Translations under genes and position numbers: made by a program
Part shown: positions 20,919 to 27,041 of the stretch, one piece after another
How positions within the stretch are numbered: the first letter of the stretch is position 1
How the letters are laid out: every line of letters starts with the position of its first letter
Source: Terriglobia bacterium
GTDB lineage: Bacteria; Acidobacteriota; Terriglobia; Bryobacterales; Bryobacteraceae
Direction: 5' to 3'
Assembly (NCBI GenBank): GCA_020073345.1
Contig: JAIQFI010000011.1
Span: 1-64,000 of the forward strand
Length of the DNA: 64,000 nt
The notes under the pieces: model-generated
Seen by the model: only the letters and a program-made list of their open reading frames with translations
Told to the model about the DNA's origin: nothing
Databases searched by the model: none

Positions 20919-23117
20919 TCATTTTCGGGTTGGCCCCTTGCGCTCCGGCTGATTGAACCCCAAATCCTCCAGCCGCGCCACGATGGAAGGGCTGGAGTCC
21001 AACAGGTTGGCCAGGGCTTCCTCGGCGGGCACTCCGCTTCGTTCCGGAGGCGCCACTGGACCTTCGATCTGCGCGGCCAGTTGCTCACGAAGCCCCTTGG
21101 GCAGAACGCTGTCCAGGTATTCCAGAGCCACGCCGCGCAGCTTGGCGTCGTCAGTGTGCAGCGCGCGGAATGCCAGCCGGACGGACTGCTGGGGCAGCAC
21201 CAGGCCGAGCAGCGTGGAAACATGCGTCATGACCTGAGAGGCTCTTTCGCGAAGCACTTCATCCACCAGCAGGAAGTCAGCGTCCTCGGCTCCTGCTCCT
21301 TCCGGCCCGCTAGCGGCGCGTTTTGAAAAAGCCTTCCGGCCGGCGGTCAGCTCGCTCCCGACGATTTCGAAAATCAGCGCAGGCTGAGGCCGGTATTCCG
21401 GATTTCCTTGCAGCATCTTTTCCAACCCGCGGGCGCACCGCTGGCGAATTTCGAAGCGATCGTCGCGCAATTGCCGTAACAGTCCCTGCCACGCGAGCGG
21501 ACTCTTGGAGGCCGCCAGCACGCGGGGAATGCGCCGGCGTACTTTTTCGTTTTCCGCGGGATCCGCCAGGCGGTCCGCGAGTTGTCCCGCAATTTGGTCC
21601 ACCGCCCGCGAAAGAGCATCGTGAGCGGCACGCGCGGTCTCATCGCGGCCCAGAAGTTTGATCACCTGGGGTATCAGCAACGGTTCTCGAAGGTCGATGG
21701 AATGAAGAGCGGCGCGGGCGCGCAGCGGGTCGCTGGATCGCAACTCCCCGAGAAGCCGCATCGTTACATCGGCCGGATGGGCGGGGTGAGCTTCCGGTGT
21801 TTGCTGTACTGCTCCCAAGCCGGAAATCGACGACGCCGAACGAAGCACGATAGATCGGGTGACCTCGTCTTCGACTTCTTCCGGACGAATAACAACGGTT
21901 TGCCGGGCCAGACCTTTCTCCAGCACGGAAACGTACGCCCGGTCCAGCCGGAATGCCAGCCAGGCCGCCACGCCGGACCACACCGCGACAGCGGCCAGGA
22001 TGAAGCGGACCGCGGCTTCGGGAAACACCAGGAGCAACTGAATGGCCGCGGCCGCCAAACCCTCACCGAGGCGATCCGCACCGATATCGATTACGGTCTT
22101 GACCGAGCGCCGTTCGGTCGCGGGCATGGGCGTGAAAAACAGCTCGTAACCGGAGCGGAATAGCGATCCTCGTAGTAACACCTCCAGTCCGCGGTTGATG
22201 AAGACGGCCGCCATGCCGGGCGCGAACAGAGAAACCAGACTGACTCCAGTGACTGCCACGGGAAGCACGGCCACGGTGCGCCCCGGACCGAATCGCCTCA
22301 ACCAAATCCGGCTGAGGCCGGCCTGGACTGCGAACGTCGCCAAGGAAATGGAGGTGTAAAAGATCGCAAAGAAGCGGCTGAGCCCGGCACCCTTGCCGAA
22401 TTCCGCGACGGCACGCGCACGGAACAGGTAGTCGAGACCGGCCGCGCTCATCGAGACCAGCATGACAAAGGCGGCCAGTCCGACCAGGTAAGGCGCGCCC
22501 GAGATCATTTCAGGGAAAGAGAGAACATCCTGGCTCTTTTCCGCCCCTTGGGCCGGAGCAAAACGGAACAGCGCCAGACTACCCGCGACTTGCAACACCG
22601 CCAGCAGGATCAGCAGGTCGGCGCTGGAACTCAAGGCCGCCACGCGCTCTGCCATCACACCACCGGCCAGACTCCCCAACGTCCCGAACGCCGCGATTTG
22701 GCCGAATCGGCGGCGGGCCTCGCGGGGATCGAAGCGTTCGCTGGCCAGGGCCCAAAAGCCGGAAAGCATCACCGGGCCCAGGGCCATAATGTGGATATAG
22801 ATGAAAGCCGCAACGGGGCGCGGAAAGGTCGTAAGAAGCATCCATTCCGCCCCGTGTAGCCCCGCCCCCAAAAGATACAGCGATGGAATCAGGCGGTACG
22901 GACCAAAGCGATGCACGAGCTTGGCGCTGAAGAGCGCGACTAAGATGGAACAGACTGCCGCCGCTCCGACGGCTGGAGGCAACGCGGTCGCCGGGAATTC
23001 CGCGAGGAACAGGCTGTCCCGGGTGGTCTTGGCGGCCAACTGCCAGGCCATCATCAGGCCAGACACCAGAACTGCCTGGCGGGCTGCGGAGGAGTTCGGT
23101 AGCCCCGGGATTTTCAT
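20919..23117 (-). CDS. MFS/nucleotide-transporter-like protein with soluble helical-repeat tail
   Basis: 732 residues. The first ~410 form about twelve membrane helices; segments such as AAKTTRDSLFLAEFP, FGQIAAFGTLGSLAGG and NRGLEVLLRGSLFRSGYE resemble bacterial ATP/ADP-translocase-like (Npt) and related MFS families. The remaining ~320 residues are soluble, alpha-helical, and contain HEAT-like units (LRSSDPLRARAALHSIDLRE, DDRFEIRQRCARGLEKML). Two bases separate it from the upstream Npt-like gene, so the pair is likely made together. Substrate unknown. Confidence 0.75.
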   Translation of the reverse strand: MKIPGLPNSSAARQAVLVSGLMMAWQLAAKTTRDSLFLAEFPATALPPAVGAAAVCSILVALFSAKLVHRFGPYRLIPSLYLLGAGLHGAEWMLLTTFPRPVAAFIYIHIMALGPVMLSGFWALASERFDPREARRRFGQIAAFGTLGSLAGGVMAERVAALSSSADLLILLAVLQVAGSLALFRFAPAQGAEKSQDVLSFPEMISGAPYLVGLAAFVMLVSMSAAGLDYLFRARAVAEFGKGAGLSRFFAIFYTSISLATFAVQAGLSRIWLRRFGPGRTVAVLPVAVTGVSLVSLFAPGMAAVFINRGLEVLLRGSLFRSGYELFFTPMPATERRSVKTVIDIGADRLGEGLAAAAIQLLLVFPEAAVRFILAAVAVWSGVAAWLAFRLDRAYVSVLEKGLARQTVVIRPEEVEDEVTRSIVLRSASSISGLGAVQQTPEAHPAHPADVTMRLLGELRSSDPLRARAALHSIDLREPLLIPQVIKLLGRDETARAAHDALSRAVDQIAGQLADRLADPAENEKVRRRIPRVLAASKSPLAWQGLLRQLRDDRFEIRQRCARGLEKMLQGNPEYRPQPALIFEIVGSELTAGRKAFSKRAASGPEGAGAEDADFLLVDEVLRERASQVMTHVSTLLGLVLPQQSVRLAFRALHTDDAKLRGVALEYLDSVLPKGLREQLAAQIEGPVAPPERSGVPAEEALANLLDSSPSIVARLEDLGFNQPERKGPTRK

Positions 23118-23119
23118 CG

Positions 23120-24505
23120 CTAGGTCCCGGCAGGACGAGCGACCGCATCCGCGGGGACAAGCGTGTCCTGTGAGCGCGGCGGGGTGCTGGGCTGAGTCTG
23201 CCGCCGGTGCGCGCGGGCGATCCCAAAGGCGACGGCCAGCCAGACCACCGTCAGAACCAGATTGATGACCGCGAAGCCCTTGATCCCCAGCGCGAAAGCA
23301 GATCCCACTTTCACCACGCCTGCTTCGAGCACATCTCCGGCGCGTTTGAAGAAGGTGTCGATCGCGGCTTTGGCCTTATACTTCGCTTCCCGGCTGGTGG
23401 GCAGGAACAGGGCGTGCACAGTGGTGTTCTGCACCGAGTAATCCGCGCCGTTCTCCAGGATCTTGAGCCAGCGTATCACCGGCAACACCGGCAGCCATAG
23501 CAGAAACGAATAACTTCCCATGGCCAGGGCGGGAAGGATAAACAGCGCACCGCGAACTCCCGCATACCGGAAGATGCGGGACACTGCGAACATCTGCAAC
23601 CCCAGCGCCACGCTGTTGTACCAGACCTCGTAGTGTCCGTAGAATTCCCCGATAAACTTCTGTTGCCCGAGAACGTCCGAGCCGGCCGCGCGAACCGCCT
23701 CCGCCGTCACCAGCTTGCCGAGCAGGAACTCTCCGGAATTGTTGACAATGTTCAGCAGCAGAACCAGGATTGCGATCAGCAGCAGATAGCGGTCGCGCAT
23801 CAGCAGTTCCAGCGCGCCCGTACTGGCCAAAGGAGCTTCCGCGTGTACGGCGGAGAAATGGACCGCGTCGGACGCAGCCCGGAAGTGAATCACCCGGCTG
23901 ATCAAAATGCAGATCACCAGCAGCCCCGCTGCAATCAGCATCAAAGGATAGGGCCCGGTGGCTTTCACAGCCATGGCGGCGGCTTGGGCGCCCACCAGAC
24001 TGCCCACGGAGCCGCCTACCGCGATCGCGGGAAACAGCCTCTTGCCGTGCGATTCCGAATACAGATCATTGGCGAAGGACCAGAACTGCGCGACCACAAA
24101 GACATTGAAGATCCCGACCCACACGAAGAAGACCACACCCTCGCGAACGCCCGCCACGCCGAATATGTAGAACAGCAGCAAATTGGAAATAAAAATCAGC
24201 GTGACCCAGGTGATCAGGCGGATGCGGCTCACCCTCGAAGCGAAAGCTCCATAGGCCGGGACAATGGCCAGCAAGAGCAGAGCTTGCGCCGCGGCCGAAT
24301 ACGCCTTCACCTCGGCCCCCCCTTGGGTCAGAATCAGAGGCTCCCGCACTGTCTTCAGCAGGTAGTAGCTCATCAGCAGCAGGAAGGAATTCAGTCCCAG
24401 CAGCAGGACGCCCACACCCTCGCCCGCCCGCACATCAGCCAAAAGGGACAATGCCCTTTCTGCGATGCTTTTGGGCCCGGAATCGGCCGCTGCGACGCCA
24501 GACAT
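23120..24505 (-). CDS. Npt1/Npt2-type nucleotide transporter-like membrane protein
   Basis: 461 residues with about twelve predicted membrane helices. SYYLLKTVREPLILTQGG near the N-terminus and QFWSFANDLYSESHGKRLFP are the recognisable family segments; the final cytoplasmic tail is short. The family includes ATP/ADP exchangers of intracellular bacteria, but free-living members are widespread and mostly of unknown substrate. It is upstream of and presumably co-translated with the larger transporter-like gene. Divergent from the secreted kinase-like gene with 57 bases between. Confidence 0.8.
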   Translation of the reverse strand: MSGVAAADSGPKSIAERALSLLADVRAGEGVGVLLLGLNSFLLLMSYYLLKTVREPLILTQGGAEVKAYSAAAQALLLLAIVPAYGAFASRVSRIRLITWVTLIFISNLLLFYIFGVAGVREGVVFFVWVGIFNVFVVAQFWSFANDLYSESHGKRLFPAIAVGGSVGSLVGAQAAAMAVKATGPYPLMLIAAGLLVICILISRVIHFRAASDAVHFSAVHAEAPLASTGALELLMRDRYLLLIAILVLLLNIVNNSGEFLLGKLVTAEAVRAAGSDVLGQQKFIGEFYGHYEVWYNSVALGLQMFAVSRIFRYAGVRGALFILPALAMGSYSFLLWLPVLPVIRWLKILENGADYSVQNTTVHALFLPTSREAKYKAKAAIDTFFKRAGDVLEAGVVKVGSAFALGIKGFAVINLVLTVVWLAVAFGIARAHRRQTQPSTPPRSQDTLVPADAVARPAGT

Positions 24506-24562
24506 TTGATTTAGGGGCCTATTTTACTACAACGGATGGTGATAAACTTTTGAGAACAAATT

Positions 24563-25360
24563 ATGCGAACACTTCATCGCTCTGCTCTCAGCGCGGTTCT
24601 GCTTGTAGTTCCCTTCGCCTTTCTCCACGCGGCCGACGTACTCACGCCCGAGCAAAAGGAGGATTTCCTCACCAAGGCGACAATCAAGCAGAGTAAAGAC
24701 GTGAACAAGGGAACTACGGGAACCTTGCGCGTCACCCTGACCGATGGAACGCTAACCCACGAGGCGAGCGTGCAGGCCATCGACGATTACAAACAGTCCT
24801 TCCTGAACGAAATCCAATTTAAAGATACTTACAAGGACAACATCGCCGCCTGGAAACTGGCACGGCTGCTGGGAATCGGCGACATGGTGCCTCCCTCAGT
24901 GAAGCGGACCTATCAAGGGAAGCCAGCGTCTTTCACCTGGTGGATCGACAACGTGAAGATGGACGAAACCGAGCGAAGAGCTAAGAACATCGAGGCCCCC
25001 GACAAGGACGCCTGGAACCAAGAAAACAATGTTATGCAGGTCTTTGACCAGTTGATCTACAACATGGATCGCAACCAGACCAACATGCTGATCGACCAGG
25101 GCTGGCACCTTTGGTTGATCGACCACAGCCGCTCCTTCCGTACTCACAAGACTCTAAAGGACTCGAGCGTTCTGAAAGCGATCGACCGGAACATGCTGGC
25201 CAAATTGAAAACGCTGGATGAAGCGACTCTGACCAAGGAGTTCGGCCGGGACGTATCCAAACCGGAAATTCAGGGACTGCTGGCCCGGCGCGATCTCATC
25301 GTGAAACTTTTCGAAGCCAAGGGCGAAAGTGCGCTGTTCGACCGTCCCCAAAGGAACTAG
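24563..25360 (+). CDS. Secreted protein with PI3K/HipA-like catalytic motif
   Basis: 265 residues. A Sec signal (MRTLHRSALSAVLLVVPFAF, cleavage after LHA) marks it as exported. The core reads AAWKLARLLGIGDMVPP, then YNMDRNQTNML (Asp169, Asn174) and WLIDHSRSF (Asp187). The DRxxxN ... IDxxxxF layout is the catalytic and metal-binding loop of PI3/4-kinase-like, FAM20 and HipA-type kinases. The N-terminal part has strands as expected for the small lobe, but I cannot identify the ATP-binding Lys. A secreted atypical kinase, or an inactive relative, is the best reading; the substrate is unknown. Confidence 0.6.
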   Translation: MRTLHRSALSAVLLVVPFAFLHAADVLTPEQKEDFLTKATIKQSKDVNKGTTGTLRVTLTDGTLTHEASVQAIDDYKQSFLNEIQFKDTYKDNIAAWKLARLLGIGDMVPPSVKRTYQGKPASFTWWIDNVKMDETERRAKNIEAPDKDAWNQENNVMQVFDQLIYNMDRNQTNMLIDQGWHLWLIDHSRSFRTHKTLKDSSVLKAIDRNMLAKLKTLDEATLTKEFGRDVSKPEIQGLLARRDLIVKLFEAKGESALFDRPQRN

Positions 25361-25377
25361 CGGGCAACTTAGCCCGC
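25360..25377. terminator. Short hairpin between convergent genes
   Basis: GCGGGC (25360-25365) and GCCCGC (25372-25377) pair around a six-base loop that includes the ligJ stop codon. It could terminate both converging transcripts, but there is no T-run. Confidence 0.35.
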
Positions 25378-26391
25378 GGCCTTGAGCCTCTTGGCGATCC
25401 GCGGGTATACCCGCCGGGCGTTGCCTTCAAACAGCTTGTAGCGATCGCCCTCGCTCAGCGGAAGTGCGTCCAGATACTTCTTGGTGTCGTCGTAGTATTG
25501 CCCCGTCCGCGGATCGATGCCGCGCACTGCACCCACCATCTCCGAGCCGAACAGGATATTGTCCACTGGCACGACCTTGAGCAGCAGCTCGATTCCCGGC
25601 AGGTGATACACGCACGTATCGAAGAAGACATTCTTCAACAGGTGTTCTTCGAGCGTCGGACGCTTCATATCCTGCGCCAGCCCGCGATAACGACCCCAGT
25701 GGAACGGCACCGCGCCGCCGCCGTGCGGGATGATGAACCGCAGCGTGGGGAAATCCTTGAACAGATCGCCCTGGATGAACTGCATGAACGCCGTAGTGTC
25801 TGCGTTGATGTAGTGCGCTCCGGTCGCATGGAACACGGGATTGCACGACGAGCTGACGTGAACCATCGCCGGTACGTCCAGCTCCACCATCTTTTCGTAC
25901 ACGGGATACCAGTACTTGTCGATGAGCGGCGGCGCGGTCCAGTGGCCGCCCGAAGGGTCGGGATTCAGGTTGCAGCCGATAAAGCCGAACTCGTTCACGC
26001 AGCGTTCCAGCTCGGCGATAACGTTCTGGGGGGGAACACCCGGCGATTGCGGCAACTGGCACACGCCGACAAAATTACTCGGATAGAGCGTGCAGACCCG
26101 GTGAATCAGATCATTGCAGTGCCGCGACCAATCCGCACTTGTCATAGCGGTGCCAATATGATGAGCCATGGCGGAAGCTCGCGGCGAGAAAATGGTGACA
26201 TCCGTGCCCCGCTCGCGCTGCAGTTTGAGTTGCGCGCCTTCCAGGCTCTCGCGAATCTGATCATCGCTGATATTGATTTTGCCGTCGTAGGGAGGTTGCG
26301 ACGGATCCTTCAGCGCAGCGATCTGCGCGTCGCGATAATCCTGGAGGGCCTTCGGAGCCGTCGTGTAGTGACCATGGCAATCGATAATCAT
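25369..26391 (-). CDS. ligJ: 4-Oxalomesaconate hydratase-type amidohydrolase
   Basis: 340 residues from the ATG at 26391, giving MIIDCHGHYTTAPKAL, the exact style of LigJ N-termini; a TTG at 26412 would add seven residues. The first two metal His lie in DCHGHY; further segments are FSPRASAMAHHIG, NLNPDPSGGHWTAPPLID, VHVSSSCNP, HGGGAVPFHWGR and FGSEMVGAVRGIDPRTG. In the protocatechuate 4,5-cleavage/gallate pathway LigJ hydrates 4-oxalomesaconate to 4-carboxy-4-hydroxy-2-oxoadipate. No lig dioxygenase, dehydrogenase or aldolase gene is nearby; instead it follows a deacetylase and an HMGL-type enzyme. Confidence 0.88.
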   Translation of the reverse strand: MIIDCHGHYTTAPKALQDYRDAQIAALKDPSQPPYDGKINISDDQIRESLEGAQLKLQRERGTDVTIFSPRASAMAHHIGTAMTSADWSRHCNDLIHRVCTLYPSNFVGVCQLPQSPGVPPQNVIAELERCVNEFGFIGCNLNPDPSGGHWTAPPLIDKYWYPVYEKMVELDVPAMVHVSSSCNPVFHATGAHYINADTTAFMQFIQGDLFKDFPTLRFIIPHGGGAVPFHWGRYRGLAQDMKRPTLEEHLLKNVFFDTCVYHLPGIELLLKVVPVDNILFGSEMVGAVRGIDPRTGQYYDDTKKYLDALPLSEGDRYKLFEGNARRVYPRIAKRLKAAG

Positions 26392-26405
26392 GTTAAATCG
26401 TGATC

Positions 26406-27041
26406 CTAACAAAACTCGTCGAGCGGCTGCACAACTTTTCCGTTCACGATCGGCGTGCAGTCCGGTGGAAAATCCTGGATTAGATCGTGCCCTTCGTCGC
26501 GAAGCTTCCGCAGGAAGCTCTCAAGGTGCCTCATTGCGCCATTGTCACGATCATGCAAGACCACCAGGCTCCACTCACGCGTTCTGCAATCGGCTAATGC
26601 TCGATCCATCCAGCCGTCCGGATCCCGGAAATCGCCCGGCACGACGTTCCAGAGCACGCAGGTATAACCGCCAAGCTTCATCCGATCGACAACCGCCGGA
26701 TGCAGCAGACCTCGGCCTAGCCGCCCCGCGCCCCCGTGAGGACGAAACAACCGTGGAGACTGATCCAGCCAAGAAAGGGCTTGTTCGGTGCGATCGAATT
26801 CCCCCAGCGCACTTTCACGATCCAGGTCGCCCAAACGTGCCCCATGCGACCAGGTGTGATTTCCGACCCAGTGCCCTTCCCTGCTCGCGCGGCGCGCCAG
26901 ATTCAGACCGTCGGGTGTGCTCACCTTCTGGCCCAGCACAAAGAAGGTGGATTTGATGCCATGATGCCCGAGGCAATCGAGCACCAACGGCGTGGCTTGC
27001 GGATCAGGACCGTTATCGAAGGTCAGAGTGACTTTAGCCAC
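26406..27041 (-). CDS. NodB-type polysaccharide deacetylase, cytoplasmic
   Basis: 211 residues, no signal peptide. Motif 1 reads TFDNGPD (Asp9, Asn10) where most family members have TFDDGP, so the first metal ligand is Asn. Motif 2 NHTWSH supplies His62 and His66, and RPHGGAGRLG is motif 3. The family removes N- or O-acetyl groups from glycans or, for soluble short forms, from small molecules or purine/allantoin-type amides. The ATG abuts the stop of the upstream HMGL gene. The substrate may belong to the same pathway as its neighbours. Confidence 0.78.
   Translation of the reverse strand: MAKVTLTFDNGPDPQATPLVLDCLGHHGIKSTFFVLGQKVSTPDGLNLARRASREGHWVGNHTWSHGARLGDLDRESALGEFDRTEQALSWLDQSPRLFRPHGGAGRLGRGLLHPAVVDRMKLGGYTCVLWNVVPGDFRDPDGWMDRALADCRTREWSLVVLHDRDNGAMRHLESFLRKLRDEGHDLIQDFPPDCTPIVNGKVVQPLDEFC

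Follow-up and report, generated by a model that had tools for sequence, protein, structure and literature searches.

A Fam20-like, putatively exported kinase-fold protein encoded beside ATP/ADP-translocator genes in Acidobacteriota: a candidate extracytoplasmic phosphorylation module

How exported kinases are supplied with ATP is a basic question in bacterial extracytoplasmic phosphorylation. The question is raised by a gene at positions 24563 to 25360 on the plus strand of the window, by which we mean the whole stretch of 64,000 nucleotides analysed here. The gene encodes 265 amino acids plus a stop codon, and its ATG at 24563 is the first ATG, GTG or TTG codon after the upstream in-frame stop. 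Judged by eye, the N-terminus opens with basic residues, continues as a long hydrophobic segment extending to ...FLHAAD, and reads as a Sec-type signal sequence of approximately residues 1-24 (predicted; 24563 to 24634, plus strand), in agreement with a preliminary description of the locus that had noted a Sec signal. A signal-like N-terminus, as scored by a heuristic of our own, was also present in 137 of 143 kinase ORFs and in all 14 ORFs in which kinase and phosphatase are fused, compared to 54 of 166 control ORFs; the heuristic is crude, as these passing controls indicate, and in an earlier version with a less fair control 69 of 222 passed. From these N-terminal sequences, export looks to be a property of the whole family.

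An AlphaFold2 model of the window protein, computed with 78 sequences, adopts a kinase fold (pLDDT 91.9, pTM 0.87). The top two Foldseek matches were hydra Fam20 (E = 2.3e-8) and DrFam20C1 (E = 8.2e-8). Hydra Fam20 also headed the VIA-align ranking (Z 20.3; 3.9 Å over 237 residues; 21% identity), followed by further Fam20 entries (Z 18.1-19.4), PI4KII (17.0-18.1), CtkA (15.7), actin-fragmin kinase (12.6) and HipA (12.3). Searched singly against PDB sequences, the protein gave weak matches, among them FAM20A at 0.28, and the Pfam cut-offs were not reached for Fam20C (PF06702; 0.0013, 18.9 bits against 26.8), PI3_PI4_kinase (PF00454; 0.052, 13.9 bits against 27.1) or HipA_2 (0.083, 12.6 bits against 27); the TCAD9 profile gave a sub-threshold match at 0.042. 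A profile of 31 family members, in turn, had FAM20A as its best hit among PDB sequences (2.7e-8) and also recovered FAM20C (3.4e-5) and hydra Fam20 (3.5e-4). Fold and family-profile matches together therefore identify the window protein as a bacterial Fam20-like protein. The preliminary description had proposed an exported PI3K/Fam20/HipA-type kinase fold, to be tried by structure prediction and to be given up if an unrelated fold emerged; the predicted fold is that of a kinase, and fold comparison and profile similarity to FAM20A and FAM20C back the proposal, with Fam20 as the closest of the three.

The weak HipA_2 match and the appearance of HipA in the fold ranking would fit a HipA-type toxin or regulator kinase. 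We consider this extremely unlikely and rejected it, since the Pfam score lies below the cut-off, the fold is much nearer to Fam20 (Z 20.3 versus 12.3), the N-terminus looks like that of an exported protein and the immediate neighbours are an ATP/ADP-translocator-like (NTT) gene and an amidohydrolase gene. Membership in the SCO1664 family was rejected as well: TIGR03843 was the best NCBIfam match (5.5e-8 over residues 91-247), at 32.5 bits against a cut-off of 172.4.

A match to the kinase family occurred in 60 of 297 sampled genomes of the phylum. The source genome carries three copies, namely that in the window, one on contig C93 (60% identity) and one on contig C50 (67-75%). The C50 copy (C50:74215-74992; loci L003, L004 and L038) is split over two reading frames and is therefore either broken or mis-sequenced. 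Querying named genomes with the window protein by itself gave 60 matching stretches, with no relative among them, while a scan with 11 aligned members returned 156 relatives among 168 stretches, from which 79 loci were kept. Because all 11 query members have Gln at position 71, this named set leans to the Gln class described below. The titles of the 79 loci name Acidobacteriota lineages (L102 is labelled Aminicenantes), bar one MAG labelled Acidimicrobiia. Two contigs of that MAG (L097 and L103) hold family members at 41-42% identity, and the label is perhaps an error. A viral origin was dropped, as a scan of viral contigs gave 44 pattern stretches with no relative among them.

Conservation was counted over 155 distinct domains aligned to the window protein, each covering at least 170 of the 232 core positions. 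Owing to an in-frame stop in the matched range, the set designated A3 does not include L115 and L128, although their ORFs were used in the neighbour counts. Two motifs that had been singled out in the preliminary description, DRNQTN (169-174) and IDHSRSF (186-192), are present and conserved beyond chance. The first is the putative catalytic loop from Asp169 to Asn174 (25067 to 25084, plus strand), and the second contains the putative metal-loop Asp187 (25121 to 25123, plus strand). D187 and F192 are invariant in 155 of 155 domains, position 169 is Asp in 143 and Cys in 9, and position 174 is Asn in 138; a lack of conservation of these three polar residues among homologues, named beforehand as speaking against a kinase, was thus not observed. 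In profile alignments with Fam20, D169 aligns with the Asp of DRHHYE and D187 with the Asp of LDNGRGF; the common pocket suggested beforehand for Asp169, Asn174 and Asp187 was assessed by way of these alignments.

A further acidic position is Asp88 (24824 to 24826, plus strand), which is Asp or Glu in 153 of 155 domains. In the alignments it falls at, or one column off, the Glu/Gln that separates Fam20C from Fam20A, its counterparts being Glu306 of Fam20C, Glu213 of ceFam20 and Asp152 of hydra Fam20. Passages of PMC5865150 describe ceFam20 Glu213 as also important, hydra Asp152 as pairing with Lys133, and Fam20A as having Gln. An assignment of Asn93 to the position of Fam20A Gln258 was dropped, because parts of PMC5413348 and PMC5865150, together with the alignments, place Gln258/Glu306 at or next to Asp88.

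Two positions depart from the canonical pattern. Position 71, which aligns with the Lys of AxFK and thus takes the place of the Lys that contacts the ATP phosphates, holds Gln (Gln71; 24773 to 24775, plus strand), and position 93, which aligns with the Glu of the AEIAAF helix, holds Asn in place of the canonical ion-pair Glu (Asn93; 24839 to 24841, plus strand). The preliminary description was therefore right to find no obvious ATP-binding Lys. The AAWKLARLLG stretch (95-104), previously read as a helix, lies in and just after model helix 91-102, which by profile alignment corresponds to the FAM20A/C helix carrying the canonical ion-pair Glu; the part of PMC5865150 concerned aligns ceFam20 Glu218 with this same Glu.

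Of the 155 domains, 96 carry Gln at position 71 and 45 carry Lys or Arg, the other 14 having another letter or a gap there. Position 93 follows this division: it is Asn in 88, Asp in 6 and Ser in 2 of the Gln-class domains, and Glu in 41 and Asp in 4 of the Lys/Arg class. Since Gln is found in 96 of 155 domains, in 88 of them with Asn93, the pair does not represent simple decay of one gene. The preliminary description had weighed an active kinase against a degraded relative; the latter, understood as one-gene decay, does not stand, given that the Gln state is common to a large clade, while the choice between activity and its loss is otherwise retained. On a tree built without columns 71 and 93 (quick search; rows with other letters omitted), the Gln versus Lys/Arg label changes once, which therefore indicates one Lys-to-Gln switch followed by conservation; with the 14 other-letter domains included, the three labels need 11 changes. 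Repeated co-evolution from Lys/Glu to Gln/Asn is unsupported, as the Gln versus Lys/Arg label changes only this once. Within the Gln class (n = 96), H66 is kept in 94 domains, E83 in 90, D169 in 95, and D88, W126, N174 and D187 in all 96. The Gln71/Asn93 class offers a ready-made way of asking whether the Lys-Glu pair is dispensable for a working kinase fold.

The neighbourhood of the gene suggests where ATP might come from. In general, NTTs exchange adenine nucleotides, and gradients set the direction. Divergent from the kinase gene, across a spacer of 57 bases (24506 to 24562) without a promoter-like match, a gene on the minus strand (23120 to 24505) encodes an NTT (TLC) ATP/ADP-translocator-like membrane protein of 461 amino acids, which passes PF03219 with 47.7 bits against a cut-off of 21. 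A scan for promoters and terminators gave no more sites than shuffled sequence did, with 0 promoter-like and 2 terminator-like matches. Two bases downstream of the first NTT gene, and also on the minus strand, 20919 to 23117 encodes a second NTT-like protein of 732 amino acids with a HEAT-like C-terminal half (PF03219 18.4 bits, HEAT_2 16.9 bits, both below the cut-offs). As the two proteins gave no mutual match in a one-to-one phmmer comparison up to E 10, their kinship rests on family profiles, a profile built on the first recognising relatives of the second with values that reach about 1e-60 to 1e-109. On the other side, convergent with the kinase gene, 25369 to 27041 (minus strand) holds an amidohydrolase (PF04909) and a polysaccharide deacetylase (PF01522).

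The protein encoded at 23120 to 24505 shows sequence similarity to the solved translocator 9j3n (1.2e-4), and its model, folded with 21 sequences (pLDDT 90.1), is nearest to ATP-bound AtNTT1 (Z 38.1), CpNTT1 (36.3) and ADP/Pi-bound AtNTT1 (35.7), with LacY next (30.2). Going by this model, the neighbour has the NTT fold, well above other MFS proteins. K379, D383 and R388 are invariant in 21 of 21 sequences, as is the K..xID....R motif that includes K379. Transport by AtAATP1 involves four charged residues, K155, E245, E385 and K527. For K527, a passage of PMC4256464 states that it matters for triphosphate transport, and we infer that K379 occupies the corresponding site.

A second neighbour of the kinase recurs among its relatives, a calcineurin-like phosphatase (PF00149). 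In the closest relative (L057, 77%), genes for NTT-HEAT, NTT, kinase and phosphatase follow each other in a row. The phosphatase of L057 matched the Shewanella protein-tyrosine-phosphatase 2z72 at 1.5e-42 and then PP2A, PP5 and other PPP protein phosphatases. All three metal motifs that were sought occurred in 41 of 55 phosphatase ORFs and none in 3, some of these ORFs being cut. Within the 64-kb window no phosphatase adjoins the kinase. The amidohydrolase takes the position held by the phosphatase in L057. On contig C67 (8359-9468, L138), away from the kinase, the source genome encodes a phosphatase that shares 80% identity with that of L057, and in the stretches read around the other two kinase copies (L037 and L038) neither partner was found.

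The identity of the phosphatase bears on whether the cluster could serve nucleotide salvage, in which the NTT would import nucleotides and the exported phosphatase and the kinase-fold protein would have extracellular nucleotides or small molecules as substrates. Import of ATP is indeed the activity of characterised NTTs from intracellular bacteria, as stated in part of PMC5381601. We nevertheless regard salvage as improbable, since the phosphatase has protein phosphatases as its nearest matches and the kinase is nearest to protein, glycan and lipid kinases.

Both partners are common in genomes that encode the kinase: NTT genes occurred in 59 of 60 kinase genomes versus 36 of 237 others, and the phosphatase in 52 of 60 (the search giving no match in the other 8) versus 27 of 237, only two of the 27 below 1e-30, although these co-occurrence contrasts are confounded by phylogeny. 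Linkage was counted as places among the matches listed, omitting second pieces of one gene, with the expectation computed from NTT number and genome size in the 59 kinase genomes with NTT. Among the matches listed, 41 of 149 kinase places lie within 10 kb of an NTT gene, with about 1.0 expected, and 108 do not; by genome, an NTT gene is located within 10 kb of a kinase in 24 of 59, with about 1 expected. The 24 linked genomes represent 13 family-level groups and show different gene orders. On the same basis of matches listed, 59 of 149 kinase places (36 of 59 genomes) have a phosphatase within 10 kb, 35 (20 genomes) have both partners and 65 (40 genomes) have either partner within that distance.

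Correspondingly, 18 of the 79 named loci have an NTT ORF, 26 a phosphatase ORF and 11 both, the NTT lying 19-2006 bases and the phosphatase 0-1367 bases from the kinase, with up to 10 kb read on each side. Where the sequence extends at least 5 kb to each side (40 loci), an NTT lies within 5 kb in 11, a phosphatase in 16, both in 9, either in 18 and neither in 22. The stretches L037-L056 and L138-L157 were picked mostly for proximity of kinase and NTT, which biases counts over them; the linkage statistics rest instead on the listed genome places and the 79 named loci. As a separate observation, L040, L041 and L053 (the f42 group and a relative) have several kinases, NTTs and a phosphatase clustered with RsbW-like, SpoIIE-FHA-GAF, STAS or SdiA-regulated-like genes.

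Might the genes have become neighbours through shared mobility or history, without functional meaning? The many members lacking such a neighbour in the available sequence, and the phylogenetic confounding of co-occurrence, would be in keeping with this. It appears very improbable to us, however, in view of NTT adjacency in 13 family-level groups with varied gene orders, the 24 linked genomes where about one was expected, and the existence of kinase-phosphatase fusions.

Of these fusions there are 14 ORFs, 13 belonging to the Lys/Arg class and one to neither class; their proximity to NTT genes is not an independent count, because the stretches were chosen largely for a nearby NTT. All nine domains with Cys at position 169 keep Lys71. 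Five of them are fused to a phosphatase (L043, L044, L052, L142 and L151), and four immediately follow a phosphatase ORF of the same strand (L040, L041, L053 and L054). By their residues, the Cys169 domains look like a second, different subset of degenerate appearance.

These variants lead to the main rival of an active kinase, namely that the Gln71/Asn93 class is a conserved pseudokinase which binds a nucleotide or a partner but transfers no phosphate, while the Lys/Glu members catalyse. Fam20A, which activates Fam20C, would be the model: in the relevant part of PMC5413348 it binds ATP in an inverted manner, and the K271A and D478A variants of Fam20C show no ATP binding. Gln71 and Asn93 replace the Lys and the canonical Glu, Fam20C Lys271 being needed for ATP binding (PMC5413348, same part), the best hit of the family profile is FAM20A, and the nine Cys169 domains, tied as they are to phosphatases, likewise appear degenerate. 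On the other hand, the Gln class keeps Asp88, Asn174 and Asp187 in 96 of 96 domains and Asp169 in 95. Among the matches listed, ten genomes have a single kinase match, which is of the Gln71 class; this speaks against a Lys-type partner being obligatory, with the caveat that distant paralogues may have escaped the search. Each of the ten also has an NTT. Moreover, eleven loci of the Gln class retain both NTT and phosphatase, which suggests continued dependence on a nucleotide and does not in itself establish catalysis. On balance, we hold a pseudokinase role to be rather unlikely.

The NTT genes next door and the recurrent phosphatase, neither of which figured in the preliminary description, alter the meaning of the finding. 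The reading that we prefer, and to which we give an even chance, is that of a kinase/phosphatase module which acts outside the cytoplasm and draws its ATP from the NTT. In such a module, the Sec-exported Fam20-like protein would work outside the cytoplasm, and the NTT encoded at 23120 to 24505, probably with the HEAT-bearing protein of 20919 to 23117, would swap cytosolic ATP for periplasmic ADP and so supply the kinase. The kinase would then phosphorylate an envelope or secreted target, which may be a protein, a glycan or a lipid, and the exported Shewanella-like PPP-type phosphatase would take the phosphate off again. Fold, homology and linkage are computed; from them we infer ATP flow and the direction of exchange, activity including catalysis by the Gln71 member, reversibility and the target. 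More tentatively, we extend this to Acidobacteriota in general, which may possess a dedicated extracytoplasmic phosphorylation system, composed of a Fam20-like kinase, a PPP-type phosphatase and an NTT(-HEAT) sending ATP out for ADP, in which the clade devoid of the Lys-Glu pair uses Gln/Asn.

If true, this would parallel, in bacteria, the ATP-fed kinases of the animal secretory pathway and would provide a function for the NTT-HEAT proteins of free-living bacteria. NTT-HEAT fusions are described in part of Major et al. 2017 (PMC5381601) as widely distributed, with their interplay and function uncharacterised, and the module would offer these widespread transporters a possible job. The locus indicates that the Fam20 kinases have a relative in bacteria, and the recurrent clustering of kinase, phosphatase and ATP/ADP exchanger makes the question of ATP supply directly testable; working as proposed, the module would represent a bacterial system of a new type. 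Searches of the open-access literature turned up no description of a Fam20-like kinase encoded next to an NTT in bacteria, which is weak evidence of absence, subscription journals and preprints lying outside this scope. The word 'kinase' has 0 occurrences in the main text of PMC5381601, and no link between NTTs and kinases was found there; 'bacteria' and 'prokaryot' are absent from PMC5865150, and 'bacteri' appears once in PMC7948968, in the reference list.

Compared with known systems, the window protein resembles Fam20 in being secreted, as predicted, in having it as its nearest fold and in retaining the Asp of both the catalytic and the metal loop. It differs in being bacterial, in scoring below the Pfam cut-off, in carrying Gln71 and Asn93 for the Lys and the canonical Glu, and in being encoded beside an NTT gene; it also has no Cys in its 265 residues, whereas Fam20 has disulfides. 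Type II PI4-kinases, CtkA and HipA belong to the same kinase-fold group and are less similar than Fam20, and the SCO1664 family, although the best NCBIfam match, stays far below its cut-off. The neighbouring protein shares the fold of the NTT translocators AtNTT1 and CpNTT1 and passes PF03219, and the product of the next gene resembles NTT-HEAT. From the Shewanella-like PPP-type phosphatases (PDB 2z72), finally, the phosphatase of the relatives differs in being paired with, or fused to, a kinase-fold protein.
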